Assembly: GCF_003610295.1 (NCBI RefSeq)
Contig: NZ_RAPV01000002.1
Span: 62,001-126,000 of the forward strand
Length of the DNA: 64,000 bases
Reading direction: 5' to 3'
Source of the DNA: Paraburkholderia sp. BL23I1N1
GTDB taxonomy: Bacteria > Pseudomonadota > Gammaproteobacteria > Burkholderiales > Burkholderiaceae
Shown here: piece after piece, positions 3,766 through 57,446 of the stretch
Position numbering within the stretch: the stretch's first letter is position 1
Layout of the letters: each line of letters opens with the position of its first letter
The notes under the pieces: model-generated
Seen by the model: only the letters and a program-made list of their open reading frames with translations
What the model was told of the DNA's origin: nothing
The model's database searches: none
Translations under genes and position numbers: made by a program

Positions 3766-3888
3766 TATGTGCTTTTGTTCGAACAATCGCAGCGGGATAA
3801 GCCTCAGCGAGACTTTTTCCGAGAGATATGCGTTTCTGTTGACGCAAAGATATGCGCTTCTGTTCGAACGTCACACATCTGTTCGCAC
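3766..3888 (+). repeat. Imperfect ~20-bp repeats, candidate TnsB-binding sites
   Basis: Four related copies occur: TATGTGCTTTTGTTCGAACA (3766), TATGCGTTTCTGTTGACGCA (3827), TATGCGCTTCTGTTCGAACG (3851) and a diverged one with core ATCTGTTCGCAC (within 3870-3888). The shared core is TTYTGTTCGAAC. Tn7-like elements carry several spaced, imperfect, same-orientation transposase-binding repeats near each end, and these copies lie about 480 bp beyond the stop of tnsB. I infer that this is one end of the element. A terminal TGT next to the first copy and matching inverted copies at the other end were not found, so the exact boundary is open. Confidence 0.5.
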
Positions 3889-4324
3889 CAAATGAAAGCG
3901 TACCGCCAATTTCTCTCACTTGAGAGTAGTTCAGGTAAATCAACGACTTGTGTTTGGCAGGCATTTCAAAAAATTGCCGAGCGCCCCCCCGCAGCCACCA
4001 AGATTCGCAAAAAACCTCCTTCTACCAATGAAAGCGTTCTGCGCTCCGTCAATGCTGGCTTCCAGCTAAATTCAACCCCTCGCTCAACTTCGACTGCGTC
4101 GCCGTTTATAGCCGGCCCCGCGCCTCCTCGTCCGGCATCCAGTTCGCCTGCGTCCACAGGCTAAGATACTGAGGGGGCTCCTCTACGGCCTCAACGTGAC
4201 GCGCGACGCAAAGCAATGAAAAAACTATCAAATCTCAACCTGCAGAGTTCCGTGGCCGCAATGGTCGTTAGCGCGCAGACTCCGTAGAGAGCGCCCGCTC
4301 CATCAGTTTAGAATCACGCGCGAC

Positions 4325-4366: not shown

Positions 4367-6631
4367 CTAGAAATTGATGTCGATAACGCGGCGGCTACCG
4401 GAGCGAGTCGGTGGCTCTGCCACCGCCGGCACACGGGCGTTGCTGTCCAGCGCTGACGTCTTCTGCGCCGAAGCTAGCACCGCGCGAGTGTGAGCCGCGC
4501 TGGCATGTGCCTCTGCAGTTTTGCGAGCCCTTCTGTTGTTGACTGTCGGTGGCAGGCCTTCTGTTGCCTCCATTCGCCTCTGCGTCGCCTGCGAGACACC
4601 GCCTCGTTTGACGGCCTGCTCGACGGTGGGATGCAACCGGTTTTTGTCTCTCTGTTTTTCGAGGTCCGCTAGGTCCCGCATCTGGATGTAGTCACGCAAG
4701 TCGGGAATTGCGATGCCAAACTTCTCGAGGGTCTGCTCGGAGGGCCCCAGTTCCACGAGATAGCCATCATCGTCCCACAAAGCATGAAGCTTGGAAGTGA
4801 ACAGCTCGTAGCCCTTAATCGGCATCGAACTCCCATTGTGCGTGGCTTCGTGCTCAATCGCTCTAATTCGAAGTTCGTCACAGGTGAACTCTCTCTTGTC
4901 AAAGCTAACAATTCCGCTCGGCGCCGTCATGTCGGGAGAGAACGGCTTAGCGAGTCGGCGGATTATCGCTTCCTCCGTAAGGTCCCACGCAGCATCACCA
5001 GCCCGCATCGCTACATTGAACAGAAACATATGCTTCGGCACCGGCGGCACCTCGGCTTCCGCCATCAAGCGAGTCCGTGCTCGACGCATGTCTGAGTTCA
5101 AGTTATGCCTGCTTATTGCAGTGAGAAGCGCTCGCATAAATTGCTCAAGCGTCAACTTTGCACTCGCCACCGCTTTCCTCAGCTTTTCTCGATTGCGCTT
5201 GCGCGCCGCGTCCTTCTCTGGGCCTTTTCCTTTGACCGGCTCGCCATGCGTCGAGCCAATGATGTCAGCGACTTCTTCCTGAAAAAAATCCATCGTCTGC
5301 TCGACGTCACCCTTTGCCTGCGGCTTTCCCGGCTCGGCCATAAGCAGTCGCTGCCGCATCCCACTGACAATGGCGCGATGCACTTTTTCCGAAATGCCTG
5401 GACCGCGGTCTACGAAAATCGCACTCGGACAACCGTAGACCATCCCATCTAAGTGAGAGACACGCCATCGTGCGAGTTCGTCCTCCTTGTCCGTACATGC
5501 ACTAAAGACACACGCCAGGTAGGAGTTGGCGTCCTCTGGCCGGTAGGTCACATACCATCCGATAATCGCACGGCTTGAACGGTCAATCGCGAGAAGCACC
5601 GTCGGCTTCAATACGCTGTCGATGCCAACAATTGAGTCGCCGAAACGAATGAAGCAGTCGGCCACGGTGCCGTCAATATCCACCACATTGAGGTCCCCGT
5701 TCGCAATCTGCGCTGAATAGCCTCGCCCTCGCGCGGAGCTTCGGAGCAGCGCCAACTTCGCCTTCTCCTCGTGAAAGATTGGCGTGACCTTTCTTATAGT
5801 GTTTCGCTCGCTCGGCAACGTCCGCGGGTCGACAGCGAATGTTTGTTTCTTGCCGTCGGCATCACGGTTGTGTCCCACCTGGCTCCGCAGAAAACCTCGT
5901 GCAATGTCCGTAATGGTAGCTCCGGGAACGTGTGCTTCGCGCCTTACGTACTTCTTCAATCTCTCGAATAGGTACACCGGAAACTGCATCCGTGAGAGAT
6001 GTGTCGACGGGTCGATAACTTCTGCGAACGTCTTCCGACCCGACTCAATAAGGGTACCGTCAGCACGTCTCGCTCCGAGGCGCTCGACGCCTTCGCCACC
6101 TTTGTCCCAGTCTCGAGGCGCCTGTGCGAACTCGTGCCCCCCATAGAAAAGAAAGTGCTCGTAATATTTACGTACCGACTTTTCCGTAAAGCCGAACTTT
6201 CTCGCTGCATTGGCGACTGCCTCAGAATAGGTCTTTTTGTCCTTGAATGGGCTATCCCCATAGACACGAACAATATGTGACACGACGTCATTCTTTTCCC
6301 GTAGCGCCTCTTTATCCTCTTTGTCTGCGAGCGAAAATTTCGACATACCTTTCGGTATCCCGCATTCGTCGACACGCCACGCGAGTTCCCGGTCCCTGAG
6401 GTTCCGCATCACTTCGATAGGGAACTTCATTCGATATTTCATCGTATCGGGGTCTTTGTGGAATGTAGCGACGCCGTTCTCCACATAGCCCAGTCGTACC
6501 AGATATACGTATGCGTTGTCTTCTCCTAGATACCTAGCGAGCAAGTGCGGGCCCTTAGGAAGCACCACGGTCACATTTGAGAACTTGCGAAATAGCGTAA
6601 TTTTTTCTGTTGCCGGATTCGGACAATTCAT
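4367..6631 (-). CDS. tnsB: Tn7-like transposase TnsB (DDE/rve family)
   Basis: This 754-residue protein is the DDE transposase that binds the transposon ends and joins 3' ends to target DNA. The integrase-core fold is visible from about residue 315. Likely catalytic residues are D320 (in DIDGTVAD), D408 (in AIFVDRGPG) and E444 (in PQAKGDVEQ), the last two 36 residues apart as expected. The region before it should hold the DNA-binding domains. The basic, alanine-rich C-terminus probably contacts the ATPase. It starts 30 bp after tnsA and is the last gene of the leftward operon. Length fits TnsB (about 700). No disruption is visible, so it may be active. Confidence 0.9.
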   Translation of the reverse strand: MNCPNPATEKITLFRKFSNVTVVLPKGPHLLARYLGEDNAYVYLVRLGYVENGVATFHKDPDTMKYRMKFPIEVMRNLRDRELAWRVDECGIPKGMSKFSLADKEDKEALREKNDVVSHIVRVYGDSPFKDKKTYSEAVANAARKFGFTEKSVRKYYEHFLFYGGHEFAQAPRDWDKGGEGVERLGARRADGTLIESGRKTFAEVIDPSTHLSRMQFPVYLFERLKKYVRREAHVPGATITDIARGFLRSQVGHNRDADGKKQTFAVDPRTLPSERNTIRKVTPIFHEEKAKLALLRSSARGRGYSAQIANGDLNVVDIDGTVADCFIRFGDSIVGIDSVLKPTVLLAIDRSSRAIIGWYVTYRPEDANSYLACVFSACTDKEDELARWRVSHLDGMVYGCPSAIFVDRGPGISEKVHRAIVSGMRQRLLMAEPGKPQAKGDVEQTMDFFQEEVADIIGSTHGEPVKGKGPEKDAARKRNREKLRKAVASAKLTLEQFMRALLTAISRHNLNSDMRRARTRLMAEAEVPPVPKHMFLFNVAMRAGDAAWDLTEEAIIRRLAKPFSPDMTAPSGIVSFDKREFTCDELRIRAIEHEATHNGSSMPIKGYELFTSKLHALWDDDGYLVELGPSEQTLEKFGIAIPDLRDYIQMRDLADLEKQRDKNRLHPTVEQAVKRGGVSQATQRRMEATEGLPPTVNNRRARKTAEAHASAAHTRAVLASAQKTSALDSNARVPAVAEPPTRSGSRRVIDINF

Positions 6632-6661
6632 GATGATTCTCGATGCAACTCGAAGCGTGCC

Positions 6662-7672
6662 TCAGTTCGATTTCGGGCGAACGAAATTTAGCGGCTCTCC
6701 GAGTTCGTAGCTGAAACGAACATCCCATTTGAGGTGGCCGAGGAAAAGAGCGACGGCAAGCATCCGGAAGGATTTTTCCTTGTTCCACCCACGCCGTTTG
6801 CCTAGCATAGAAACGACACGTTCGGCGTTGCCGCTAGCTCTCGTGGCGAGAAGGTCCTGCGCGAACGGCCCAGCGACTCCACCAAGCCCCCCAATCTCGT
6901 CTAGCTCCACATGTTGCATGTGCGAAAGCATCCGCAGATAGCTCCAGTATTCAAGCTCCGTGACGCTCAGTTCGGTCATGATTTCGTGGGTCGCACACCA
7001 TTCCGCCGCCCCCTTTTTCTCGCGTTCGTGTCTTGCCCTAACTTTGGGAAGTGAAAGATGCTCATGCGGCTTTGCCGAAACAGCGTGGTAAATCAGATAC
7101 GGCACTCCTGGTATCCTCAACGTGAGCATGAAGTCGATTGTTGCTAGCTCGTTCCGAGGGAACATGCGGTCTGCCCGACAGTACGCCAGAAACGCTTCTC
7201 GATTCCATTGCGGGTACTGCGTTCGTATCTCGACGACGAAGGGACACATTTCGAAGTACACCAGAAGGCGTGCTTCGAGGTGGGAATGACACGCAACCTT
7301 GCCGCCGGCCTTAAAGCTGAAGTAATAGCCAGCGATACCCACGCGGCTGTCGCTTGCCTTTTTCCAGCACTCGAACTTCGTGGCGCTCAACACACCACGT
7401 GGGTCAGTTTCGGGGAGAACGATTGGCCATTGAAGAACAGGCCAGCCGGCAAGCCGGCGAAGCTGGAATTCCTGACCTGTTCGCCCATCTTCCTCGACGT
7501 CACGCTCGTCGATTGCAAGACTCTTCGAAATGGTGACACTCATCGACCATGGATGCCACTCCGTCACCCGCAACCCGCTCGCGATAGCAATACCGCGCAA
7601 GAGCTTGCCTCTAGCGCGCGAAAACGACAGATGCGAGCAGTCACCGTTCAGTCTTTGTTTTTTTCTATCCAT
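6662..7672 (-). CDS. tnsA: TnsA-type endonuclease
   Basis: TnsA cuts the 5' strands at the transposon ends, allowing cut-and-paste transposition. In this 336-residue protein the restriction-enzyme-like active site is recognisable: E133 in SHLEARLL, Q152 in EIRTQYP, D180 in LATIDFML and K201 in HAVSAKPHEH, matching the family's E-D-Q/xK pattern. The N-terminus is longer than in Tn7 TnsA (273 residues). The start at 7672 overlaps the tniQ stop by 25 bp, and an ATG at 7543 (MSVTISKSL) is an alternative. Presence of an intact active site argues for cut-and-paste movement rather than cointegrate formation. Confidence 0.85.
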   Translation of the reverse strand: MDRKKQRLNGDCSHLSFSRARGKLLRGIAIASGLRVTEWHPWSMSVTISKSLAIDERDVEEDGRTGQEFQLRRLAGWPVLQWPIVLPETDPRGVLSATKFECWKKASDSRVGIAGYYFSFKAGGKVACHSHLEARLLVYFEMCPFVVEIRTQYPQWNREAFLAYCRADRMFPRNELATIDFMLTLRIPGVPYLIYHAVSAKPHEHLSLPKVRARHEREKKGAAEWCATHEIMTELSVTELEYWSYLRMLSHMQHVELDEIGGLGGVAGPFAQDLLATRASGNAERVVSMLGKRRGWNKEKSFRMLAVALFLGHLKWDVRFSYELGEPLNFVRPKSN

Positions 7673-9270
7673 TCTCTAGCCCTACAGATGCGTTTGGAAA
7701 AGGCATTTTTTGAGCGACCTTCGTACGTCTTACGAGTAGCCCATTTCGAATCTTTATCGACCTTCTTCGCTAGCGACGTATGCAACTCAATCTGTCGGTC
7801 ACGCCAGGTCTCGTACTTATCGGCGCATTGGTCCAACAGCGATTCAAGTTCGGGCGTGCCTGTTCCTCGCTTGTATGCCGACTCGCTGCCTGTCTCGCTG
7901 AGGAGAAACGCTCGCGAGATGCGACGCCTCGGGTCGTGGCGAATGGTGTCCTCATAGCGTTGTCGCACCAGCTCCATTTTTTTCGCCTCAAGCGTCTGCT
8001 TTCGCGCGACTACCTTTGGCAAGGCAGACTTTCTTGATTGCGACGGTAAGTTCTCGTCGAACCAATTTCGGTCGTAGTGGAATGCAAAGAACGCTAGCTT
8101 CTGGCCATCCGGCAGGTCGATAATGCTGTTACGCGTAAAGGTCGGTGTGAGGGTCTTTCCGGCCAGAATTGCAGAGCGACACTGTTCGCGGTAGTGCTCC
8201 ATCTCGACCGCATCAAGCTGCTCGAAATTGCGACGCCATCGCTCGATTTTTTTATCCGGTGTCCGACGCACGTACTTCGGCGGAATTCGAGCTTGGGCGT
8301 CGTATTCCTTGGGGCTGACCTCACGAGCGTTCACTTCATTCAGAAAGTCGTGCCATCCTCCGAATAGACTCCATATAGCCGCGATGTTCTGGACTGGGTT
8401 TATCAGAGGTCCATCAGACGCCTCATGGCCAGTGACCCGAACGAAGGTATGTCCCGCAAAACCGAGGAGCGGAGTCAACTCGGCCCCCAATCGCCACTCG
8501 AGGTTCTCCTGTGCCACCTGATGATAGTCACGGCGGTCGGACGTATGAGCGATGTGCCGAATCTTTCGCCGAAGAATCGGCCCCGTATTTTCTGCGAGTG
8601 CCGATGTATCAATGTGACCTTCGAGCACTTCCTGCGCCATCTGCGCAATGGCGACTGCCGCTTCCACGCTATCGTGGTTTGTCATTCTGCCAAGGGCACG
8701 CAGTTCATCACCGCGCGGGCATTGATGTCGAGGATGCCATGTCGGGGGGCTTCTGCGATGGCTAACGTCACGACCAGGAGCGAATGTCATAAGCGCCTCC
8801 TTGTGCTTCGGACAGTAGCGTATCGATGGCATGAGATGAAGGCGATGCCAGATAGCGTGTCCATGCGTCGCAAAGTCAGACTCCATGCAGCTCCGACAGA
8901 TTTGCAGGCGACCACGGAGAACTGCCTTGTGCTTTGGCACATGGCTTATCGAACCCGGCAGGGTGCCAAGTCGATACTGTTCAAGCAACGCCTGGCTCTT
9001 CGACTCGGGAAGAAATGCGCTGTTCAGGCGGTAGCGCGTGTGATTCATAACGAGCGACTCCCAGCCCGGCAAGCTCCCCGGAAACAAGCTCGCTATTCCT
9101 TCAATATTTGATGGGTGTACGAATGCTGGTCTATGGTGGACCTTGTCCATCACTGCCATCACGCCACGGTGATTGTTCACGTCGCTCAACTCAGCCTGCC
9201 GCACCACAAATCCAGTGAAATCCTCTTCATGCTTGATACCTGTCCCGTGAAACAAATTTACCGTGCTCAT
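7648..9270 (-). CDS. tniQ: TniQ-family target-selection protein
   Basis: This 540-residue TniQ-family protein carries the family zinc-binding region: ICRSCMESDFATHGHAIWHR followed by RYCPKHKEAL (about residues 121-157), matching the usual CxxC ... WHR ... C-xxH pattern. TniQ/TnsD proteins bind target DNA or a guide complex and recruit the TnsC ATPase. The C-terminal half is rich in charged residues and has no recognised domain. It is the second TniQ-family gene of this operon, overlapping the first by 44 bp and tnsA by 25 bp. Two TniQ-type proteins suggest two targeting routes, as in other Tn7 relatives with paired TniQ/TnsD genes. Confidence 0.85.
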   Translation of the reverse strand: MSTVNLFHGTGIKHEEDFTGFVVRQAELSDVNNHRGVMAVMDKVHHRPAFVHPSNIEGIASLFPGSLPGWESLVMNHTRYRLNSAFLPESKSQALLEQYRLGTLPGSISHVPKHKAVLRGRLQICRSCMESDFATHGHAIWHRLHLMPSIRYCPKHKEALMTFAPGRDVSHRRSPPTWHPRHQCPRGDELRALGRMTNHDSVEAAVAIAQMAQEVLEGHIDTSALAENTGPILRRKIRHIAHTSDRRDYHQVAQENLEWRLGAELTPLLGFAGHTFVRVTGHEASDGPLINPVQNIAAIWSLFGGWHDFLNEVNAREVSPKEYDAQARIPPKYVRRTPDKKIERWRRNFEQLDAVEMEHYREQCRSAILAGKTLTPTFTRNSIIDLPDGQKLAFFAFHYDRNWFDENLPSQSRKSALPKVVARKQTLEAKKMELVRQRYEDTIRHDPRRRISRAFLLSETGSESAYKRGTGTPELESLLDQCADKYETWRDRQIELHTSLAKKVDKDSKWATRKTYEGRSKNAFSKRICRAREWIEKNKD

Positions 9271-11011
9271 CTTTCACTGTTTGTGCTTCGTCTTGTCGAC
9301 GAGCTTCCCAATTTTTTAGTGTTGTTTGTCGCAGCTTTACCGCTCGTGCCATGCGCCAGTGGCCTACACGAGCGCTCGCTCCTTGCCGTGTCCCCCATTC
9401 CACACGAGCGGCGATATACCCATCGCGAGTTTGTGAGAACGCTTGCGTCGCGATGCTCGGCAAGGATGAGGTCAGTGCGTACTCGCTGATGCCCAGTAGT
9501 TCGCGAAGTCGATATGCACTTCGCCGCATAGGAGGGCCTTCGAGGGAAACGAGATGTGATTCAGCAGCATCGATTGCGCGAGCTAACGCTGAAAGTCCTG
9601 CATGAGGCCTGGATGCGGGCGCCGTCGAGTGTTTGGTCTGTTTCGTGCGGCGTTGCCGCTTGAGCCACTCGGGCGCATTCCGACGCAGCAATGCGAATGC
9701 CGCCGGTGCCAAATCCCGGAGTTGAGTTTGCGTGGCGTCCGGATGCTCGCGGCGCAGCTTCAGCCAGAGCGACTTCGTTTCATCAGTCGAACGTGTCAGG
9801 TATGTCCGATAGTGCGATTCGACGGATGGCATTGCGGCGAGTACGCGATATACGGAACTCGTAGACATGCCTGTGGCAAGCGCGATGTCCTGCGGGCGCA
9901 TGCCAGTAACGAGAAGTCGCTGAATGTTGGCCAACGTCGCATCGGCCAACTTCGACGGGCGCGCATCGATAGGTATTCCTGAGCAGCGACAGAGGATGGT
10001 CAGCGCGTGTGCGCTCGTGCCTAGCTCATTGGCAGCAGAAACAACTGTCCCGTGCTGCAACAGTGCTGCTCTCGCCTGGTCGACCGAGAAGCACTTTACG
10101 TCCCGATGAGTGCGGTCCGCGCCGGACGGGTGCGGGCACTCACAGTGCTGGCTGAACCATCTAAGCAAAATACACCACACCGGGTGTATCGCGCGGTGGT
10201 CACGCATGAGGGTGCGAAGCGCCGCGTCGACATAGTCGGGCGTCGAGACGAGGGTGTCCAGCCGAGAGTCGTCGAAAGATTCTCGATAGAAAGCCTCGAA
10301 CGTTGAGATGAGTTCCGAAAGCCGAAGGCGGCCGCTGTTCATCAACCAGCGCGCATCTCGCAGGGCGTCAATCACGCCAGACTTGCCGTATTCAGTCGCT
10401 GCCTCCATACCCGCGACGCACGTGTCGGAGCGCTTCGCGAACTCGATGGCGTTCCGGAGTTTCACAGCCGAACGAGCACAATGACACTGCGCATCAAACA
10501 GTGGCTCCTGCGTCAATGATGTTCTGAGCCAGCAAAAGTGGACCGGGCACGCTGCAACAAATGGAGCAACGTTGCGACGGTGCGTGAAGGAGAAACCATG
10601 TTGGTCCTGCGCCTCCTCCGCACACTCGGGGCACAAAAAAAATGCTCGTTCAGACGGCGCCAGCAGGACAGGCAGCCTTGACGACCGAATCGGTCCTTTG
10701 CATGGCGCTCTCAGCCGCCTTTTCTGCTCGGATTGTCGCTCCTTCGGCACCCCTAGCAACTCATAGGCAAGCAGCGTGTGTTTCGCCTCAAGCTCGTTTC
10801 GGTCGCCGAACAGGTACCCAATGCGAGCCTGAAATTCATCTAACCGGCTTGGCATACCATCTAGGCCAATGCCCCTCGTGAGCAACTGCCGGCTAATCTT
10901 GCGAAGCGTGCTATCGCCGGCGAAGTCCGCAGTTCGCCGCAGCAGCGAGTTTACGGTCTCACCATCGGGGAAGGGGGTTATCAACACCCTTGAAGGGAGA
11001 TACTCAGACAT
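9227..11011 (-). CDS. tnsD: TnsD-like TniQ-family protein with C-terminal HTH segments
   Basis: From the ATG at 11011 the protein has 594 residues (MSEYLPSRVLITPFPDGETV). A TniQ N-terminus is followed by the zinc site LCPECAEEAQDQHGFSFTHR with ACPVHFC downstream. The long C-terminus has repeated HTH-like stretches, for example LVTGMRPQDIALATGMSTSS and ARAVKLRQTTLKNWEARR. This layout resembles TnsD, which recognises a fixed chromosomal attachment site. An upstream in-frame ATG at 11161 was rejected because it would extend far into the ATPase gene, while 11011 gives a short 8-bp overlap with its stop. Confidence 0.8.
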   Translation of the reverse strand: MSEYLPSRVLITPFPDGETVNSLLRRTADFAGDSTLRKISRQLLTRGIGLDGMPSRLDEFQARIGYLFGDRNELEAKHTLLAYELLGVPKERQSEQKRRLRAPCKGPIRSSRLPVLLAPSERAFFLCPECAEEAQDQHGFSFTHRRNVAPFVAACPVHFCWLRTSLTQEPLFDAQCHCARSAVKLRNAIEFAKRSDTCVAGMEAATEYGKSGVIDALRDARWLMNSGRLRLSELISTFEAFYRESFDDSRLDTLVSTPDYVDAALRTLMRDHRAIHPVWCILLRWFSQHCECPHPSGADRTHRDVKCFSVDQARAALLQHGTVVSAANELGTSAHALTILCRCSGIPIDARPSKLADATLANIQRLLVTGMRPQDIALATGMSTSSVYRVLAAMPSVESHYRTYLTRSTDETKSLWLKLRREHPDATQTQLRDLAPAAFALLRRNAPEWLKRQRRTKQTKHSTAPASRPHAGLSALARAIDAAESHLVSLEGPPMRRSAYRLRELLGISEYALTSSLPSIATQAFSQTRDGYIAARVEWGTRQGASARVGHWRMARAVKLRQTTLKNWEARRQDEAQTVKDEHGKFVSRDRYQA

Positions 11012-12413
11012 GGCCGCCTCCGAGCCTGGGCCGGGTCGGAAGTCCCGCGAGAATAGTGCCGGCGCCAAAGGGCAAGTGGTCGAGGTATAGTTTGACAGCG
11101 GGACGTGATATCGATGCGGGGTCCTCCACGTATGCTGCAATGGCCCTACAGGCAGGCTCATATGTTTGGAGCTGCGCTTCGAAGATTTCCGCGACCACCT
11201 CCTTCGAGGGGCCGCCGTTTTTCAGCAATTCCGGCTCCCATGCGAGACGTTCGTGGAGTGCACGAAAACCTGCAGCTAGCCAACCGATACGACCACGACA
11301 GACTTTGAAAGTCCACTTCGGCAAACCATGCGGCATCTCGAGAAGCGGCGAAAGCAGCCCTGCTTTCCAGAACCACAGATTGAATTGGTACCAAAAATCC
11401 AGTTTGTCGAGGTCATCCGCGGTCACGTCATGCAGGCTGCGCCCGCAGAGAATGGCTTCGATGTTGTCTGGGGGGGCGGCCATCGGCATAAAGGCGAAAA
11501 TTCGGCCACTTAGCACAGCGTCGACGTCCGAATCCAACTGCTTCGCGCCGGCCATGAACACGTCCGTGCATGAAAGCAGAAGCGGGATGTTCGTGTGCCC
11601 CTGGAGTCGGCACAAAAACTTGAGAATGTCGCGAATTTGTCCTTTAAGACTTTGAGCGTTGGCACCGTCAATGACGAACAGACCCACGTTCAATAGAACT
11701 GACGCTGCAATGACTGCGGACGCTGCACTCTTTCCGCGCATTTTCCGAAATACGGGGGCGAGGCTCGCTGGGTCTTTAATCTCCGATACGAACTTCTCTC
11801 GAATCTGCTCAAGCAGTCCCTTCAGCGTTCCGCAGCTGGGCCACTGCAAAACCACAATGGGGAAGTACCAGACGAGCTTGATGTCGGCCAACGATGACGC
11901 CACCACACGAAACGGTGGTCCAAAAAGATTGCGCAGGCGCTGTATGTATGCCGTCCGGCCCGACTGGGAGCAACCAGTTATGACGAAATTGACGCCGGTG
12001 AGCGTATCGAGGTTGTCGCGACTCGGAATGGAGCCCCGTCCTTGGACCGCTTGTTGGAACGAATAGAAATACCGGCGGTACCTCGGATTGGTAATGCATT
12101 TGTCCTGCATGCAGTCGACGTAAGCCGAGACGAGCGTGTACGTGTACCTCACAATGTCCTCGGTTGCGAGATACCCCTTGTCGAACTGCGTCATTGCTCG
12201 AATCTTCGCTTCAGGGCCGGCCTTCCACAAATCCCTGTCTTCAGGGACGAGCCTCTTGCGCAACCGCTTGAGAACGGCCGCCTTACTCGGCGCATGCGCG
12301 AACTCTGGTAGCTCCGAGGTCTGGCAGACGTATGACTCAAGGCTGTCAGCCTGCATGACTACCAACCCGCGGCGGAACACCGGCCACGTGGGTACTTCGA
12401 TGAGTTCCATCAT
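11004..12413 (-). CDS. tnsC: TnsC-like AAA+ protein with altered Walker motifs
   Basis: This 469-residue protein occupies the regulator-ATPase position and aligns in pattern with TnsC/TniB AAA+ proteins. The Walker A region reads ITGCSQSGRTAYIQ, with Arg replacing the invariant Lys. Next comes a TnsC-like WPSCGTLKGLLEQI strand. The Walker B region is LFVIDGANAQ, with Gly replacing the catalytic Glu. I read both codons in the DNA (CGG near 11952-11975 and GGT near 11664-11684). ATP hydrolysis should be weak or lost, although nucleotide binding cannot be excluded. It is the first gene of the leftward operon, which is unusual. It may be a divergent active form or an inactivated copy. Confidence 0.75.
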   Translation of the reverse strand: MMELIEVPTWPVFRRGLVVMQADSLESYVCQTSELPEFAHAPSKAAVLKRLRKRLVPEDRDLWKAGPEAKIRAMTQFDKGYLATEDIVRYTYTLVSAYVDCMQDKCITNPRYRRYFYSFQQAVQGRGSIPSRDNLDTLTGVNFVITGCSQSGRTAYIQRLRNLFGPPFRVVASSLADIKLVWYFPIVVLQWPSCGTLKGLLEQIREKFVSEIKDPASLAPVFRKMRGKSAASAVIAASVLLNVGLFVIDGANAQSLKGQIRDILKFLCRLQGHTNIPLLLSCTDVFMAGAKQLDSDVDAVLSGRIFAFMPMAAPPDNIEAILCGRSLHDVTADDLDKLDFWYQFNLWFWKAGLLSPLLEMPHGLPKWTFKVCRGRIGWLAAGFRALHERLAWEPELLKNGGPSKEVVAEIFEAQLQTYEPACRAIAAYVEDPASISRPAVKLYLDHLPFGAGTILAGLPTRPRLGGGHV

Positions 12414-18229: not shown

Positions 18230-19017
18230 TTACCCTTCTTCGGCCTGAGTCTCAACGATGCGACCCGGCGGCGTGTGGCTGTCCGACTCCGCCACCTTCA
18301 GCCCGAGACTCTTGAGTCGATTCACGAGTTGGTCAATGCGGTGCTCAATGAAGGTCTTCAGGGCGTCAATCGGCATCGTCTCCTTCCCCGCGAGCTCGAG
18401 AATCGTTCTAGGAATGATGTGGCCCTCCAGGACGTCAGGGAATTTCGGCTGACTGGCAATGTCCTTCAAGTAGTCCACCGGGTTACGCGCGGAAATCTGA
18501 AGGTTGGTGAGCTGGGTGATGTACGCAACCGTTTGCGGTAGCTGTTGTCATCGGTGTCACAGTCGAGCTCTACAGAAAGGTCCACATACAGGTCCGGCTT
18601 GAAATCCTCGCGACCGGCAATCGTGCCACCCAAAATGGAAGTGTAGAGCGCAGTGGTCCTCTGACCGTCGAGCAGATACTGATACTCGGTCTGCTTTTCG
18701 TGCGGCGATATCAGCAGACGACCAATCTGGCGGTGGCTGTGCAAAGCTACGCCAGTTCGCCATACCAGCAGGCTGCCAAGCGGATAGAACTTGAAAAGAC
18801 TGTCCCACAGCTTCTTGACGTTTTCGGGCATCCAGACGACGTCGCGCTGGAAGGTCGGAATCTGGTATTTACGCTGCTCCAAGTTCATCAGGAACAGGCT
18901 GATGCTTATGCCCTTCGGCACGATGCGGTCTGAGAAGCCGATGGCCTTCGCGCCGATGCCTGCCTGTTCGAGGATGGCAGAGTCGTCCTGAAAATCGTCG
19001 TCCTGTCGCTGGTTCAT
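18230..19017 (-). pseudogene. DUF262 (GmrS/ParB-like nuclease) gene with frameshift
   Basis: The N-terminal frame (start 19017) shows a DUF262 domain: IPTFQRDVVWMPENVKKLWD, then FKFYPLGSLLVWRTG, then the nucleotide-site motif YQYLLDGQRTTALYTSILGG. It runs to DDNSYRK near 18535. The continuation in another frame (TVAYITQLTNLQISARNPVD through TILELAGKETMPIDALKTFI) ends at 18230. Restoring one A in an A run near 18532 joins them into about 262 residues. DUF262 domains occur in type IV restriction enzymes (GmrSD) and other defence proteins. The partner DUF1524/HNH half is absent. It is probably an inactivated defence gene, or one base is wrong in the assembly. Confidence 0.7.
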
Positions 19018-34114: not shown

Positions 34115-34321
34115 CTAGACCGGTTTGATATTTGCGGCCTGCTTGCCCTTTGGCCCCATCTTTACGTCGAAGCTGACCTTCTGGTTCTCTTGCAACGTCT
34201 TGAAACCTGCTGCGCTAATTTCCGAGAAATGGGCAAATAGGTCCTCTCCGCCATCGTCCGGCGTGATAAACCCGAAGCCCTTGGCGTCGTTAAACCACTT
34301 TACCGTGCCAGTCGCCATCAT
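34115..34321 (-). CDS. cspA: Cold-shock protein CspA family (copy 1)
   Basis: The 68-residue single-domain cold-shock protein binds single-stranded nucleic acids. RNP1 is [10 protein letters not shown] and RNP2 is LFAHFSEI. The ends are [10 protein letters not shown] and [11 protein letters not shown]. The start at 34321 aligns with the second copy at 47531-47737, from which it differs at only a few positions. A leader of about 90 bases conserved between both copies precedes it. Confidence 0.93.
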
Positions 34322-34412
34322 CCGTTCCCAATAAAATTTTCAGAGCACGCTTAATTCGGTGCGCGCGAGGCTTACATACCCTGCAACAGGGCAGCTAGTA
34401 CCTTGCGCTCAA
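34322..34412 (-). promoter_or_regulatory. Conserved cspA leader (copy 1)
   Basis: On the coding strand this 91-base stretch shares blocks with the leader of the second cspA gene: TTGAGCGC-AGGTACTA-CTG, TGTTGCA, TTAAGCG-GCTCT and AAATTTT-TTGG. This is a probable 5' untranslated region with post-transcriptional (cold-shock) control. Confidence 0.6.
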
Positions 34413-43206: not shown

Positions 43207-43420
43207 AGCCGGCTCTCCAGTCACCAGGCGCTGGTTTCCATTTTAGTCCGTGTGTAGTCCGGCGTCTTCCGGTGACAACAACGGTAAAGGCCCCATGTCC
43301 GGCTTTCACTGCGAACGACAAGCGCTCCTATTCTCGCTCATGCCGCATACGCCCAGGTATCGTACGGCGGCCTGAGTGCCTTGTACCGTGTGCCGACCCG
43401 GCGCGCGCTGCATTCTTACG

Positions 43421-47530: not shown

Positions 47531-47737
47531 TTAGACCGGCTTAATGTTTGCAGCCTGCTTGCCCTTCGGGCCCATCTTCACGTCGAAGCTGACCTTCTGA
47601 TTCTCTTGCAGCGACTTGAAGCCCTCTGCCTTGATTTCCGAGAAGTGGGCGAACAGGTCTTCTCCGCCGTCATCCGGCGTGATAAAGCCGAAGCCTTTTG
47701 CGTCGTTGAACCACTTCACTGTTCCAGTTGCTACCAT
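47531..47737 (-). CDS. cspA: Cold-shock protein CspA family (copy 2)
   Basis: The 68-residue cold-shock protein starts at 47737 ([20 protein letters not shown]). It differs from the copy at 34115 only in about five residues, around [11 protein letters not shown] versus [14 protein letters not shown]1 and RNP2 are intact. Upstream frame extension to 47854 was rejected because the extension is the conserved leader. It is presumably an RNA chaperone, with control through that leader. Confidence 0.93.
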
Positions 47738-47829
47738 TCGTTTCCAACAAAATTTGAAGAGCGCGCTTAATCCGATGTGGCTGAGTCTTGTATATATTGC
47801 AACAGCGGCAGTTAGTACCTGGCGCTCAA
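47738..47829 (-). promoter_or_regulatory. Conserved cspA leader (copy 2)
   Basis: This 92-base leader shares four sequence blocks with the leader of copy 1 at 34322-34412, in the same order and spacing. This suggests a functional 5' untranslated element and not only gene duplication. Beyond it, up to 48103, nothing further is recognised apart from a fragmentary rightward frame with LELARFAAAMQELRDAREAF. Confidence 0.6.
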
Positions 47830-48685: not shown

Positions 48686-49453
48686 TCATTCAACTTCATC
48701 ACCGTCGGTGTCAGAGGTCCCCGCAGCCTTCTCGTGAGCCATCGCCGCGCGAGCCAGGGTGTTGGCCAGTTCGGGCGTCGCCTCCTTGCGTTCACTATAC
48801 CGGTCGGTCAGATAATCAGACCGGTCGCGGACTAGCAACGTGAACTTGTAAAGCTCTTCCATCACGTCGACGACTCTATCGTAGTAAGACGACGGCATCA
48901 TGCGCCCATTCGAATCGAACTCCTGGTAGGCCTTCGCGACCGACGACTGATTGGGGATGGTGACCATCCGCATCCATCGTCCGAGCACGCGTAGCGCATT
49001 GACTGCGTTGAACGACTGGGAGCCGCCACAAACCTGCATGACCGCCAGCGTTCTCCCTTGCGTGGGACGAATGCTGCCCAGTTCAAGAGGCAGCCAGTCA
49101 ATCTGGTTCTTGAAAACTGCGGTCAGTGTGCCGTGCCGCTCGGGGCTGCACCACACCTGCCCCTCCGACCATTCGGACAATTTTCGGAGCTCGACCACCT
49201 TCGGATGGTCGGCTGGCACGCTGTCCGCAATGGGCAGTCCGTGCGGGTCGAACACCCTGGTTTCCGCGCCGAAGTGTTTCAGGATGCGTTCAGCTTCGAG
49301 CGCGAGGAGCCGGCTGTAGGACGTCGGCCGCAGCGAACCATAGAGCAACAGGATGCGCGGTGCGTGCGTTGAGACAGTGCACGGTTCGAGCTTTTGCAGG
49401 TCAGGCGTGTCCAGATGCGGCGCGCTGATGTTAGGCATGTCCTTTGTCATCAA
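48686..49453 (-). CDS. arsH: ArsH NADPH-dependent organoarsenical oxidase
   Basis: The 255-residue flavoprotein oxidises trivalent methyl- and aromatic arsenicals. It shows the FMN-binding [60 protein letters not shown] and [20 protein letters not shown] blocks typical of ArsH. The start at 49453 overlaps the arsC stop by 4 bp, and a second Met immediately follows. An acidic C-terminal tail ([11 protein letters not shown]) is unremarkable. Confidence 0.93.
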
Positions 49454-49872
49454 AGAACTCTCCGCCCCTGCGCGTCAATAACGACCTCGCCATCTTCCTT
49501 CGTAAATGGCCCCTGCTGTGGTGACGGGAGAATATCCAGCACAACCTCGGATGGCCGGCACAGGCGTACGCCCAGTAGCGTCACGACAAACGGCCGGTTA
49601 ATCAGAATCGGATGCTCGAGCATGGCGTCGAGCAGTTGCTCGTCCGCCAGCGCCGGGTTGTCGAGTCCGAGTTCGGCGTACGGCGTACCTTTTTCACGCA
49701 GCGCGCCACGCACCGTCAGGCCGGCCTTTTCAATCATGTCCTTCACTTGTTCGCGGCCCGGTGGCTGCTGCACATACTCGACAATATTGGGCTCGATGCC
49801 CGCATTCCGGATGAGCGCAAGCGTGTTGCGCGATGTCCCGCAGTTCGGGTTATGAAAGATAGTGACGGTCAT
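49450..49872 (-). CDS. arsC: Glutaredoxin-coupled arsenate reductase ArsC
   Basis: The 140-residue ArsC reduces arsenate to arsenite using glutathione and glutaredoxin. The active-site cysteine lies in [20 protein letters not shown]. The substrate-binding arginines are in LREKGTPY (partly) and [20 protein letters not shown]. The start at 49872 ([10 protein letters not shown]) is fixed by homology. An upstream frame extension overlaps the promoter region. It is the first gene of arsC-arsH-arsN2, divergent from arsR. Confidence 0.93.
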
Positions 49873-49983
49873 GTCGGTCTGCTCAAATTGGTAAGTGACG
49901 CGTGCGCTATGCCCGGGCATTAAGAGCGGGGCGCCGTGCACGCCTGGAGAGTGCATGCAGTGTTTGCCTCATTTTAACACTTC

Positions 49984-50012
49984 TTGAAATATTGAAAATG
50001 CGCGACTATCAT
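49984..50012 (+). promoter_or_regulatory. arsR promoter, probably leaderless transcript
   Basis: TTGAAA (49984-49989), a 17-bp spacer and TATCAT (50007-50012) form a good sigma-70 promoter. The arsR ATG begins at 50020, seven bases after the -10, so transcription should begin at or next to the start codon. No ribosome binding site is present. The AT-rich, partly palindromic 49970-50012 stretch is a likely ArsR operator. Confidence 0.6.
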
Positions 50013-50019
50013 TCACGAT

Positions 50020-50355
50020 ATGGACTCGAACCTTGCCATCCGCTCACTTGCCGCGCTCGCCCACGAATCGAGGCTTGCCGTATTCCGCATGCTCGTCACG
50101 GCGGGCCCCAATGGTCTGCCGGCTGGCGAGATAGCTCAACAACTGGGCGTCTCGCCGTCGAGCCTCTCGTTCCACCTGAAGGACCTGTCTTACGCCGAAC
50201 TCGTTTCCTCGCGACAGGAGGGTCGCTACGTGTTCTATTCGGCCAACTTCGAGGCGATGAACGAACTCATCGGGTTCCTGACTGAAAACTGCTGCGCGGG
50301 CGCGCCCTGTGCGGTCGCCGACGCCCTCAAGCCTTGCTGTGGAGAAGAGTCATGA
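50020..50355 (+). CDS. arsR: ArsR-family arsenite-responsive repressor
   Basis: The 111-residue winged-HTH repressor has MDSNLAIRSLAALAHESRLA, then recognition helix QQLGVSPSSLSFHLKDL and strand RQEGRYVFYSANF. The arsenite-binding cysteines are near the C-terminus, as NCCAGAPC and KPCCGEE, a placement found in the ArsR class that lacks the CVC helix-4 site. Binding of As(III) should release the divergent promoters. It overlaps arsI by 4 bp and heads the rightward operon. Confidence 0.92.
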   Translation: MDSNLAIRSLAALAHESRLAVFRMLVTAGPNGLPAGEIAQQLGVSPSSLSFHLKDLSYAELVSSRQEGRYVFYSANFEAMNELIGFLTENCCAGAPCAVADALKPCCGEES

Positions 50356-50810
50356 AACGCATGCATGTGCACGTATCCGTCGAGAATCTGGCTGACAGTA
50401 TTCGCTTCTACTCTGTGCTCTTCGATGCACAGCCAGTTGTTACGAAGGGTGACTACGCCAAGTGGATGCTCGACGACCCGCGGGTCAATTTCGCGATTTC
50501 GCAACGCGGGCAACCAGTCGGGGTGGACCACCTGGGCATCCAGGTCGAGTCGGATGAGGAATTGGCGGAAATGAATGCGCGCCTTGATACAGCTGCGCTT
50601 CCCAAGGAAACACAAACCGGCACAGCGTGCTGCTATGCCAGGTCCGACAAGTACTGGACCGTGGACCCTCAAGGCGTCGCCTGGGAGACTTACCATACGC
50701 TGGATTCGATTCCGGTTTTTGGTGAATCGCGGGCGAAGCCTCCGGAAGAATTGATAGGCGCATGCTGCGCACCCACGGCGCCGGCTACCTCGTTCCGGAG
50801 CCGTTCATGA
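50352..50810 (+). CDS. arsI: ArsI/CadI-family metalloenzyme (C-As lyase)
   Basis: The 152-residue VOC-fold enzyme cleaves the carbon-arsenic bond of trivalent organoarsenicals. The Fe(II) ligands should be His in MKRMHVHVSVENL, His in VGVDHLGIQVES and Glu in QGVAWETYHTL. The substrate thiols are the pair in GTACCYARSDKYWTVDPQ. It overlaps arsR and the following reductase by 4 bp each (ATGA). A further Cys pair, GACCAPTAP, lies near the C-terminus. Confidence 0.9.
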   Translation: MKRMHVHVSVENLADSIRFYSVLFDAQPVVTKGDYAKWMLDDPRVNFAISQRGQPVGVDHLGIQVESDEELAEMNARLDTAALPKETQTGTACCYARSDKYWTVDPQGVAWETYHTLDSIPVFGESRAKPPEELIGACCAPTAPATSFRSRS

Positions 50811-51319
50811 GCGACCGGACATACAACGCACTCTTCCTCTGCACGGGCAACTCTGCGCGCAGCGTGATGGCGGAAGCGCTTCTCGCCACGTTGGGGCAAG
50901 GTCGCGTCCATACGTTCAGCGCTGGCAGTCATCCGACCGGAAAGGTCAATCCTTTCGCCGTCGAACAGGTAATGAAGACGGGCTACGAAGTATCGAATCT
51001 CCGTAGCAAGTCGTGGGATGAGTTCGCCGAACCGGGCGCACCGCATATGGACTTCATCATCACGGTGTGCGACCAGGCTGCAGGCGAGGTATGTCCGCTG
51101 TGGCCGGGACATCCCGCGTCAGCGCATTGGGGCTTCTACGACCCGGCTGCCATCGAAGGTACCGATGACACGAAGCGCGCTGCATTTGAGCAGGTCTATC
51201 GGCAGATAAAGCACCGGGTCGAGGTGTTCCTGAAAGTGCCGCTGGACGAACTCGATGACGCCGCCATTCGTGCCGAGTTGCGACGGGTTGGCGACATCGA
51301 CGTCACCACCATCGGGTAA
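50807..51319 (+). CDS. arsC: LMW-PTP-type arsenate reductase (copy 1)
   Basis: The 170-residue protein has the phosphate/arsenate loop LFLCTGNSARSVMAEALL, CxxNSxRS of the low-molecular-weight phosphatase fold, and FIITVCDQAAGEVCPLWPGH carrying the additional cysteines used for thiol relay. The start at 50807 is set by overlap with arsI. It reduces arsenate, distinct in mechanism from the glutaredoxin ArsC at 49450. A related gene follows after 45 bp. Confidence 0.9.
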   Translation: MSDRTYNALFLCTGNSARSVMAEALLATLGQGRVHTFSAGSHPTGKVNPFAVEQVMKTGYEVSNLRSKSWDEFAEPGAPHMDFIITVCDQAAGEVCPLWPGHPASAHWGFYDPAAIEGTDDTKRAAFEQVYRQIKHRVEVFLKVPLDELDDAAIRAELRRVGDIDVTTIG

Positions 51320-51364
51320 TAACTACGAACGGTCTTTCGACCGCGTATCCGCCAGGGATTCGAC

Positions 51365-51865
51365 ATGAGCGATAAGGTCTACAACGTGCTGTTTCTCTGC
51401 ACGGGCAATTCGGCTCGCAGCATACTCGCCGAGGTTCAATTGAACGTGCTCGGCGGTGGGCGCTTCAGGGGCTACTCCGCTGGCAGTCACCCCAAGGGAG
51501 AAATCAACCCGTTGACACTGCAGCTCCTGAAGCAAATGAGACTTTCCACCGACGGACTTCGAAGCAAGTCATGGGACGAATTTGCAACCCCAGATGCGCC
51601 GGTGATGGACTTCGTCTTCACGGTGTGCGACCGGGCCGCCGGCGAGCAATGCCCGGTCTGGCCGGGGCAACCCATCACTGCACATTGGGGTGTTCCAGAC
51701 CCGGCGGCTGTCGAGGGCTCCGACGACGCGAAAATGCGCGCCTTCAAGGATGCTGCCGCGACACTTCGCAAGCGCATCGAACTCTTCAGGAGCCTTCCGC
51801 TCGCATCGCTCGACCGTCTTGCTCTGAAGAACGAAGTGACTGATATCGGGAAGTCGACACCATGA
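51365..51865 (+). CDS. arsC: LMW-PTP-type arsenate reductase (copy 2)
   Basis: The 166-residue paralogue of the preceding gene has LFLCTGNSARSILAEVQLNV and FVFTVCDRAAGEQCPVWPGQ. About half of its residues match copy 1, so the duplication is old or the two came separately. The conserved block LRSKSWDEFA-PDAPVMDF is shared. It overlaps aqpS by 4 bp. Two reductases plus the ArsC at 49450 give three arsenate-reducing enzymes in one locus. Confidence 0.9.
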   Translation: MSDKVYNVLFLCTGNSARSILAEVQLNVLGGGRFRGYSAGSHPKGEINPLTLQLLKQMRLSTDGLRSKSWDEFATPDAPVMDFVFTVCDRAAGEQCPVWPGQPITAHWGVPDPAAVEGSDDAKMRAFKDAAATLRKRIELFRSLPLASLDRLALKNEVTDIGKSTP

Positions 51866-52539
51866 GGTTGCGTCATGCTGTCGTCGCCGAGTTTCTTGGC
51901 TCGGCGCTGCTTCTCGCAACCGTCGTGGGTTCCGGCATCATGGGGGAACGACTTGCCGGCGGCAATGTGGGAATCGCCCTTTTGGCGAATACGCTAGCGA
52001 CGGGCGCGGGTCTGGTGGCCCTGATTGCGACGTTTATCAGTATCTCGGGTGCACACTTTAACCCGCTGGTCACGCTCGCCGAGGTCTGCCTTGGCAAACT
52101 TCGGTGGAAGCACGCTGGCGCCTATATCGCGGCACAAGCTGTCGGTGCCATCGCCGGGGTCATAGCTGCTCACGGTATGTTCGACCTGCCGTTGATAGAG
52201 GCATCCAGACACGTTCGTACAGGTCCGTCACAGTGGTGGAGTGAGGTAGTCGCGTCATTCGGCCTGCTCACCGTGATTCTGAACGTGGCAAAGCGACGTA
52301 TCGAATTCGTTCCGGTCGCCGTGGGCGGCTATATCACCGCCGCTTACTGGTTCACCGCTTCGACCTCGTTTGCTAATCCGACGGTGACTATCGCGCGTTC
52401 GCTGACGGATACCTTTGCCGGCATCCGCCCTGTCGATGCGCCGGGATTCATCGTGAGTGAACTGGTAGGCGGAGCCCTCGCAGTCGTCGTCTTCCTTTGG
52501 ATGGAGCGCTCGCATGTTCCAACGGCAACCACGCTTTAA
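51862..52539 (+). CDS. aqpS: Aquaglyceroporin AqpS (arsenite channel)
   Basis: The 225-residue MIP channel has six membrane helices and two half-helix loops. The NPA motifs read NPL (GAHFNPLVTLAEV) and NPT (SFANPTVTIARSL), as reported for some arsenic-operon aquaporins. The opening RHAVVAEFLGSALLLATVVG is typical. In rhizobial ars operons AqpS lets internally produced arsenite flow out. No ArsB or Acr3 is intact in the window, so this may be the exit route. It ends the rightward ars operon. Confidence 0.9.
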   Translation: MRLRHAVVAEFLGSALLLATVVGSGIMGERLAGGNVGIALLANTLATGAGLVALIATFISISGAHFNPLVTLAEVCLGKLRWKHAGAYIAAQAVGAIAGVIAAHGMFDLPLIEASRHVRTGPSQWWSEVVASFGLLTVILNVAKRRIEFVPVAVGGYITAAYWFTASTSFANPTVTIARSLTDTFAGIRPVDAPGFIVSELVGGALAVVVFLWMERSHVPTATTL

Positions 52540-52691
52540 GGGAGCCGACAAGGAAGCTGTCGTGGTTGAAGGTGGAAGCCCGCGTGAACAGGCCGCCGGG
52601 CGGATTGACCAGGCCGAATTCCATAGCGCGCGGAAGCGCTAGCGCCGATGGTGTGGCGAAAGGCCTCGCCCCTTCGCCACGCTGCCCATCC

Positions 52692-52994
52692 TCACAAGGT
52701 GGGTAACCGTTCGAAATCGTCAAAGCGGGTAAATGGTGGTTGCACTTCGGTGACCGCAAGTTCGTCGACAAGTGCGGCGGACATTCCCTCGCTTAACCAG
52801 GCGCACATGTCAGCAAGCTGCTCCGGCGAGCCCTGCAGCAATGCCTCTACTGAACCGTCCATGCGGTTACGGACCCAGCCGGTAACGCCCAGCTCAGTCG
52901 CATAGCGCACGCAGGCTTCCCGGTACCCGATTCCCTGCACCTGGCCATGTACCCGGACCAGCCGGGTCTCAAGCATCCCGTCTTCAGCTCCCAT
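52692..52994 (-). CDS. acyP: Acylphosphatase (copy 2)
   Basis: The 100-residue acylphosphatase has catalytic Arg in VQGIGYREACVRYA and Asn in GWVRNRMDGSVEA. It is strongly similar to copy 1 at 26802 over its whole length, including the extended LSEGMSAALVDELAVTEVQP end. AGGAGG lies 7 bases before the ATG at 52994. It begins 24 bp after aioR on the same strand and is therefore the last gene of the aioXSR operon. Confidence 0.88.
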   Translation of the reverse strand: MGAEDGMLETRLVRVHGQVQGIGYREACVRYATELGVTGWVRNRMDGSVEALLQGSPEQLADMCAWLSEGMSAALVDELAVTEVQPPFTRFDDFERLPTL

Positions 52995-53018
52995 ACACGG
53001 TCCTCCTAAGCGGTAGCG

Positions 53019-54368
<1,350 letters not shown>

Positions 54369-54382
54369 GATGCTCTCCCGCT

Positions 54383-55840: not shown

Positions 55841-55850
55841 CTGCGCGACC

Positions 55851-56729: not shown

Positions 56730-56755
56730 AACGGCTCACTCCCCATCACGAACCG

Positions 56756-56769
56756 TTACCGGACGGTAA
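56756..56769. promoter_or_regulatory. Inverted repeat, candidate AioR upstream activator site
   Basis: TTACCG (56756-56761) and CGGTAA (56764-56769) form a perfect palindrome with a 2-base centre. It lies about 75 bp before the sigma-54 promoter, in the position of an activator site. A second repeat GCCGTC/GACGGC follows at 56771-56791. Confidence 0.55.
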
Positions 56770-56836
56770 TGCCGTCCAGCAACCCGACGGCGGCAACGCT
56801 ACCGCGCGCGGGCCTCTCAGCAAAGGTCAAGCCGGG

Positions 56837-56852
56837 TGGCATACCTCTTGCC
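56837..56852 (+). promoter_or_regulatory. Sigma-54 promoter of aioBA
   Basis: TGGCATACCTCTTGCC has GG at -24 (56838-56839) and GC at -12 (56850-56851), with the required 10-bp separation, and matches the TGGCAC-N5-TTGCW consensus closely. It is 54 bp upstream of aioB. Confidence 0.85.
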
Positions 56853-56905
56853 CTTCAATCGATGCTAACGACAACACCTGCAAGATTCAAGCAAAGGAGG
56901 AGGCC

Positions 56906-57430: not shown

Positions 57431-57446
57431 GTTCGAGGAGCTGAAA

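Follow-up and report, generated by a model that had tools for sequence, protein, structure and literature searches.

The tns operon

The window considered here is a 64,000-nucleotide stretch of Paraburkholderia sp. BL23I1N1 (genome G000; positions 62,001 to 126,000 of contig NZ_RAPV01000002.1, referred to as C2), and its subject is a set of five tns genes within an 85-kb insertion. This insertion is a mobile, glmS-directed Tn7-like element of a real lineage. Its unusual gene order, tnsC-tnsD-Q-tnsA-tnsB (C-D-Q-A-B, where Q is a second TniQ-family gene), is common to the whole lineage. The operon and the adjoining end comprise the following features.

12413-11004, minus strand: tnsC, with degenerate ATPase motifs
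11011-9227 (open frame from 11161), minus strand: tnsD, proposed glmS-directed target selector (Pfam TnsD 4.2e-14, TniQ 1.1e-6)
9270-7648, minus strand: second TniQ-family gene (Q), 540 amino acids (aa) and TnsD-sized, proposed second target selector (Pfam TniQ 1.8e-9)
7672-6662, minus strand: tnsA, 5'-strand endonuclease, from alignment with Tn7 TnsA
6631-4367, minus strand: tnsB, DDE transposase, from a phmmer comparison with Tn7 TnsB (7pik)
3880-4043, plus strand: left end (tnsB-side, glmS-distal), with the TGTTCGCACC terminus and direct TnsB-type sites at +13 and +149 (3892 and 4028)
3875-3879: left 5-bp target-site duplication, ACATC; the right copy is at G000:C2:151198-151202

All five open reading frames of the Tn7-like operon named in the initial annotation are present, on the minus strand, and each can be identified. 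The likely start of tnsD is the ATG at 11011, which agrees with the start in P. phenazinium. With this start, tnsC and tnsD overlap by 8 nt, tnsD and Q by 44 nt, and Q and tnsA by 25 nt; a 30-nt gap separates tnsA from tnsB. The stops and starts therefore do not overlap throughout, as had been proposed, but only at the first three junctions.

TnsD passed the Pfam cut-offs for TnsD and TniQ, Q passed the cut-off for TniQ, and TnsC was slightly below that of AAA_22 (26.5 versus 27 bits). By structure comparison, TnsC is nearest in fold to Tn7 TnsC. A phmmer search of the PDB matched TnsB to Tn7 TnsB (7pik, E = 6e-10); the alignment pairs three acids that we take to be the DDE triad. Neither TnsA nor TnsB matched a Pfam family at E up to 1. 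TnsA nevertheless aligns with the TnsA of Tn7 (R721 copy, L085) at the catalytic E, D and K, and S130, E133, D180 and K201 are unchanged in all 15 of the lineage proteins aligned. Q matched Tn7 TnsD by phmmer (E = 1.4e-5). The best Foldseek match to a predicted model of Q was also a TnsD (8v32_J); however, with a predicted template modelling score (pTM) of 0.53 and an E of 0.013 for that match, the model is weak evidence. The PDB sequence search returned nothing for TnsC or TnsA and a best E of 0.04 for TnsD, none of the five proteins scored over an NCBIfam cut-off, and the window had no Rfam match. Profile searches of the whole element identified neither a second TnsC nor a TnsE, the latter with a one-sequence profile of Tn7 TnsE at E up to 1e-3 that a divergent TnsE could escape. 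TnsB, TnsA, TnsC, TniQ/TnsD and the end architecture that define the broad group of Tn7-like transposons are all present.

Ends and extent of the element

In P. phenazinium LMG 2247, two relatives of the element (L002 and L003) are identical up to one shared base, beyond which their flanks differ, and this places the terminus at TGTTCTCACCAAATGAAAGC. The window matches that terminus at 3880 with 1 mismatch in 20 (0 expected). A whole-genome pattern search of G000 located the right end, inverted and with one mismatch, at C2:151178-151197; the other nine matches had two or three mismatches each, and a reversed control also gave nine. The element thus spans C2:65880-151197 (85,318 bp) and runs 25,197 bp past the end of the window. 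The initial annotation, which gave 4367-12413, had delimited the operon, while the element begins at 3880 and continues beyond the window.

The G000 junctions read ...CACACATC|TGTTCGCACC on the left and GGTGCGAACA|ACATCCTCG on the right. A related element in genome G020 (C7:44267-119648, 75,382 bp) has ACTAC on both sides, and in that of P. phenazinium (G249) the repeated bases are AAAAC, on contigs C39 and C19, whose connection depends on that match only. All three elements have TGT/ACA ends and 5-bp duplications. Putative TnsB-type sites were scanned in these sequences with a 16-base core and up to 5 mismatches. On the left, sites start at +13 and +148/149 in all three elements, with an extra inverted, overlapping site at +25 in G020 and G249. 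On the right, all three have a site starting at +13, G000 and G020 have one at +36, and G000 and G249 have inverted sites at +91/92 and +182/183. A close direct pair consequently faces glmS in two of the three elements, an arrangement reported for many Tn7-like elements (PMC11406308).

The glmS target and a possible second target

The glmS gene lies beyond the right end, its 3' end encoding ...NLAKSVTVE, and the element sits 25 nt behind the glmS stop codon. The operon abuts the glmS-distal end and reads away from glmS, with approximately 77 kb of cargo in between. A TG-type end was found about 24-26 nt after the glmS stop in 11 of 13 flanks read (23 or 25 in G208). Six of these are solid (G000, G020, G249, G160, G203 and G146), having the lineage AATGAAAG-type site just inside. 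The other five were called by position: the initial bases are TGT in G238, G423, G496 and G208 and TGG in G017, and the inner sequence differs. The two flanks with no TG-type end are those of the G104 glmS and the second glmS of G020. In seven genomes (G000, G020, G160, G017, G423, G496 and G208, the last being locus L123), the operon is on the glmS contig, points away from the gene and is 2 to 80 kb from it. Operon and glmS are on separate contigs in the drafts G203, G146 and G238, and element copies and the glmS orthologue are on different contigs in G011, G110, G205 and G148. In G205 and G148, a GlmS paralogue (64-65%) was observed 19 and 7 kb from the copy, respectively.

In the draft assembly of P. 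phenazinium, two contigs are 100% identical over at least 34 kb of the element, and no far end was located for the second copy. Since these identical copies have different left flanks, recent movement in this species is suggested. The second copy is away from glmS, beside a polysaccharide gene, and hints at a second target. The dual targeting proposed earlier can therefore be divided: insertion position and 5-bp duplications establish the glmS site, and the second target is only hinted at by this copy. We infer that Q directs a second class of target and replaces TnsE, which the position by the polysaccharide gene fits without proving it. Comparison of the tnsB-side flanks of ten lineage loci identified no common DNA that would mark a shared second target. 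Tandem tniQ-tnsD genes have already been described at 1,048 loci (PMC10293859).

Gene order and phylogeny

Within the family, 249 genomes were searched for TnsA, giving 17 places in 15 genomes, and 15 of the 17 loci have the C-D-Q-A-B order. One exception (G238) is truncated where its contig begins, leaving A, B and a fragment of Q; the other (L032, in G104) has A-B facing Q-D-C. At the level of the order, a TnsB profile run against 399 genomes returned 14 matches. Five have the C-D-Q-A-B order, namely the present element, G020, G011, and G496 and G423 of two other families. Four are A-B-C-D (G602, G509, G448 and G354, the last being Tn7 itself, with TnsE), three have other layouts (D-A-Q-B in G002, A-B-C-D-Q in G358 and B-C-D in G506), and two (G425 and G581) are partial and of unlike types. 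At the class level, 369 genomes yielded the present element and one distant A-B-C-D-Q element. Since C-D-Q-A-B recurs in relatives, the order reflects more than chance. That it departs from Tn7, as first suggested, is also clear from the R721 copy, which is A-B-C-D-E.

In the TnsB tree, 17 C-D-Q-A-B rows and locus L104 are split from all others with support of 100/98. C-D-Q-A-B falls on one side of a branch in the trees of TnsC (16 rows) and TnsA (17 rows), with Shimodaira-Hasegawa-like approximate likelihood ratio test (SH-aLRT) values of 99 and 98, respectively; some branches are long, and loci L123, L132 and L133 are in none of the three trees. Because the trees agree, TnsA, TnsB and TnsC are one inherited unit. 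The initial annotation treated the five genes as one core, a view that differing phylogenies would have undone; the concordant trees uphold it, with the co-inheritance of D and Q indicated by shared gene order alone. L104 (D-A-Q-B, G002:C141) is on a long branch inside the lineage in the TnsB tree; as a result, C-D-Q-A-B is not strictly one clade there. A 437-aa open reading frame unrecognised by TnsC profiles occupies the tnsC position of L104, which is perhaps a more derived member.

Viral contigs contained no TnsB relative. Among plasmids, 103 records matched TnsB and none covered over 80% of it; Paraburkholderia plasmid H2 (L087) carries C-D-A-B with a short D and without Q. A genome-contig search gave matches in one species, P. 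phenazinium. Short tnsD frames were observed at L031 (292 aa), L033 (350 aa) and L087 (293 aa), the first two on a different contig from the glmS orthologue. Identity between L031 and L033 is 84% for TnsA, 59% for TnsB, 50% for TnsC and 35% for Q, consistent with part exchange or very uneven rates.

TnsC has lost its ATPase residues

The first gene of the operon had been described as an ATPase gene. While tnsC is indeed first and its product has an AAA+ fold, the ATPase residues are lost. In the window TnsC, Walker A is GCSQSGRT (K to R) and Walker B is VIDG (E to G), so that the Walker A K-S/T and Walker B acid of a Tn7 with an ATPase TnsC are absent. Across the lineage, the K-S/T is present in one of 19 loci and the Walker B catalytic acid in none; the motif row of L133 is unsure, as its TnsC was scored on the last 480 residues and gave a low value (44 bits). 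By contrast, both motifs are kept in nine of nine other Tn7-like loci. Excluded from these counts are L104, L025, whose contig begins after tnsC, and two partial, unlike loci (L111 and L135), where weak TnsC matches do show GKT and GKS. The eroded and canonical forms are homologous (hhalign probability 99.7, E = 3.9e-26, 378 columns).

Despite this loss, the lineage TnsC is under purifying selection. The ratio of nonsynonymous to synonymous substitution rates (dN/dS) was 0.134 for window-L002, 0.103 for window-L021, 0.091 for L023-L024, 0.138 for L031-L033 and 0.252 for L029-L034, ratios that are rough because dS ranged from 0.7 to over 3; two further pairs were saturated and undefined. Of the five proteins, TnsC is best conserved between the window and L002 (83%) and between the window and L021 (71%), which does not hold for most other pairs.

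Proposed mechanism and alternatives

With slightly better than even confidence, we consider the insertion to be an 85-kb cut-and-paste element of a distinct Tn7-like lineage in which a non-hydrolysing TnsC is the matchmaker, TnsD leads to glmS and Q is a second selector. As drawn from the anatomy of the element, TnsD would bind the glmS end and recruit TnsC. With its AAA+ fold and no ATPase residues, TnsC would bridge TnsD and TnsB without ATP hydrolysis, and in the most eroded branch it would perhaps act without nucleotide. TnsB at the asymmetric ends would receive the signal from TnsC, after which TnsA and TnsB would cut both strands and join the ends. In place of TnsE, Q would guide the element to a second target class. 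Target immunity, being ATP-dependent, would be weak or absent, with specificity coming from TnsD and from TnsC assembly alone. ATPase-deficient mutants of IstB, MuB and TnsC still support transposition, and lack of hydrolysis has been linked to loss of target immunity (PMC11208146). A wider claim, that site-specific transposition throughout the lineage relies on a TnsC that has lost ATP hydrolysis and, in the most eroded branch, ATP binding as well, is put forward tentatively and falls a little short of an even chance; the ATP switch would then be dispensable in nature and the TnsD-TnsC-TnsB contacts would suffice.

Several points, in addition to the roughness of the dN/dS ratios, weigh against the proposed explanation. 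The window, L002, L021, L022 and L102 keep a P-loop-like GxxxxGR[TS], GxxxxGRT in the window subgroup, together with the Walker B Asp, and could still bind nucleotide. The Lys is retained in the homologue P0003 and at locus L103, from which it follows that motif loss was stepwise. As the 19 loci are one lineage, gene order and motif loss were coupled once and not 19 times. TnsC does not rank first in conservation for the pairs L023/L024 and L031/L033, and for L029/L034 it ranks last. Lastly, ShCAST insertion is untargeted with a non-hydrolysable analogue (PMC9876797); since the present lineage is nonetheless targeted, it would need another control.

Some of these same observations favour an ordinary ATP-driven element of which only the gene order is unusual, its TnsC still binding and hydrolysing ATP through substituted residues (Arg for Lys, and another acid or water path for Glu). 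The retained P-loop-like motif and Asp, the Lys of P0003 and L103 and the AAA+ fold all agree with this alternative. However, in L028, L029, L030, L034, L087, L132 and L133, Lys is replaced by G, Q, E, E, C, E and V and the Walker B Asp by T, E, H, P, E, P and Y, respectively, and the catalytic acid is absent from 19 of 19 loci. We regard this alternative as unlikely, at roughly one chance in four. That a canonical TnsC or another AAA+ protein encoded elsewhere supplies the ATPase in trans, or in mixed oligomers, appears improbable. TniB-family genes do occur elsewhere in G020 (one place, also L032-TnsC-like) and G496 (four places); in G000, G160, G017 and G249, however, neither TniB-family nor L032-type TnsC genes were identified with profiles of which that for TniB was positive in 13 of 14 control genomes, and the element holds no second TnsC.

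A decaying remnant with an unused, eroding TnsC would account for the motif loss and the short TnsD frames of L031 and L033, yet it is hard to reconcile with perfect duplications, open frames, catalytic residues, purifying selection and the identical P. phenazinium copies, and we give it very little credence. Least probable of all is a chimera of five genes from different elements, or an assembly error: the unusual order, the uneven TnsA and TnsB identities of L031 and L033 (local exchange may happen) and the placement of D and Q in no trees leave it some room, but the recurrence of the order in 15 of 17 family loci and two other families, and the concordant trees, refute it in the main.

Cargo and neighboring sequences

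The cargo follows the operon and extends beyond the window.

12414-64000, on to G000:C2:151197: cargo, bounded by the right end at G000:C2:151178-151197
48686-59924: arsenic cluster in the cargo, from Pfam

The arsenic cluster encodes an ArsH-type FMN reductase, ArsC, a low-molecular-weight phosphatase-type ArsC, an aquaglyceroporin, a sensor kinase, a sigma-54 regulator, and arsenite-oxidase-type Rieske and molybdopterin subunits; the ars and aio names are those we presume to apply. No Cas protein was identified by Pfam among 20 window proteins (the five Tns proteins included) or by PADLOC among 10 proteins, a set that covers part of the cargo frames, and the window, to which the repeat scan was confined (25 kb of the element lie beyond), contains no tandem array or CRISPR-like repeat family. 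The earlier judgment that guide-RNA targeting is unsupported, cas genes being absent, is borne out to this extent.

The PADLOC analysis gave three matches to possible defence genes (PDC-M48B-type, E1-E2/JAB-like, and the start of a PDC-M55C/HEC-05-type) at L073 10558-11799 and 14101-16410 and at window 18466-19017. An 82%-identical 274-bp direct repeat is present in the cargo at window 34116-34389 and 47532-47805. In the P. phenazinium copy, a pair of ATPase and HNH-like genes separates tnsB from the left end (L002 13336-16034), and deeper in the element is a nucleotidyltransferase/AAA cluster (L037 12187-18891) that resembles defence cargo by eye.

In the left flank, window 3824-3877 resembles a right end (TGTGACGTTCGAACAGAAGCGCATATC..., with 24-bp repeats) belonging to a different Tn7-like element, which would have been 24 nt behind glmS before the present insertion. 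A matching end is about 23 kb to the left (G000:C2 about 43220-43385, L131), and 137 bp inward of it is a second site. The 5-bp flanks of this other element do not match cleanly, and C2:5001-65000 contains no tns gene by profile. Two Tn7-like islands seem to be stacked at attTn7, one of them non-autonomous.

Comparison with known systems

In Tn7, the operon adjoins the glmS-side end, whereas here it is glmS-distal and reads outward. Tn7 (plasmid R721 copy, NC_002525.1) shares homologues of TnsA, TnsB, TnsC and TnsD, TGT/ACA ends, a 5-bp duplication and asymmetric ends with the present element, as well as the glmS attachment site (PMC11406308). The present element differs from Tn7 in having a second TniQ where no TnsE was found, a TnsC without ATPase residues, and inverted right-end sites (G000 and G249). 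Thus insertion at glmS/attTn7 is shared with the prototype, and prototypic gene order and TnsE are not.

Elements with dual TniQ-TnsD proteins, such as the type I-B1 CRISPR-associated transposon (CAST), share tandem tniQ/tnsD genes and, in type I-B1, glmS homing (PMC11406308, PMC10293859). Here, in contrast, no cas genes or CRISPR array were found, the two selectors are both large, at 540 and approximately 594 aa, rather than one being a small TniQ, and the TnsC motifs and gene order differ. Burkholderia BGImetal (PMC10702557) and Cupriavidus CMGI-E (PMC3384475) are likewise Tn7-like islands of Burkholderiales with catabolic or metal cargo. The former has a tnsA-tnsB-tnsC-tniQ order; the latter is linked to two tnsD genes, but it lies elsewhere than at attTn7 and has tnsABC from which an inversion has separated tnsD1/tnsD2. 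The L032-type element (G104) has two TniQ-family genes and related TnsA and TnsB, differing in its convergent layout and canonical TnsC (GPTGSGKT, VIDD). The presence of TnsA sets the element apart from Tn5053/Tn402 (tniABQR, no TnsA, resolvase); resolvase was not searched for by family.

Neither the C-D-Q-A-B order, as a standard family or otherwise, nor a TnsC without ATPase motifs was found described in the open-access library searched. The mining of Faure 2023 applied Pfam gathering cut-offs and required two distinct components (PMC10293859), and Benler 2021 used Pfam and CAST-derived profiles and required a TnsB score of 60 (PMC8649781). In the current Pfam, with 20 of each protein in hand, a transposase family was matched by none of 7 TnsB tested, the AAA_22 cut-off was reached by none of 20 TnsC, and a TnsA family was matched at any strength by 6 of 15 TnsA tested. 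Earlier surveys probably overlooked the lineage or sampled it thinly, and Pfam-based mining has a blind spot for such elements. The precomputed Pfam annotation of a protein database does list PF13401 for the TnsC homologues P0001 and P0003, which counts against such a blind spot.

Implications

The TnsC ATP cycle is held to govern target immunity and TnsC assembly length in Tn7 and CASTs. In this natural lineage, TnsC is folded and conserved, and most well-placed copies are glmS-directed, after the ATPase residues were lost, making the role of ATP directly testable; TnsC proteins of the L103 type (Lys), the window type (Arg) and the fully eroded type provide a graded series for comparison. If the proposed reading is true, a glmS-directed integration machinery free of ATP control could serve as a basis for genome insertion tools, and the ATP switch that is regarded as central to Tn7-type target choice would be dispensable in nature.

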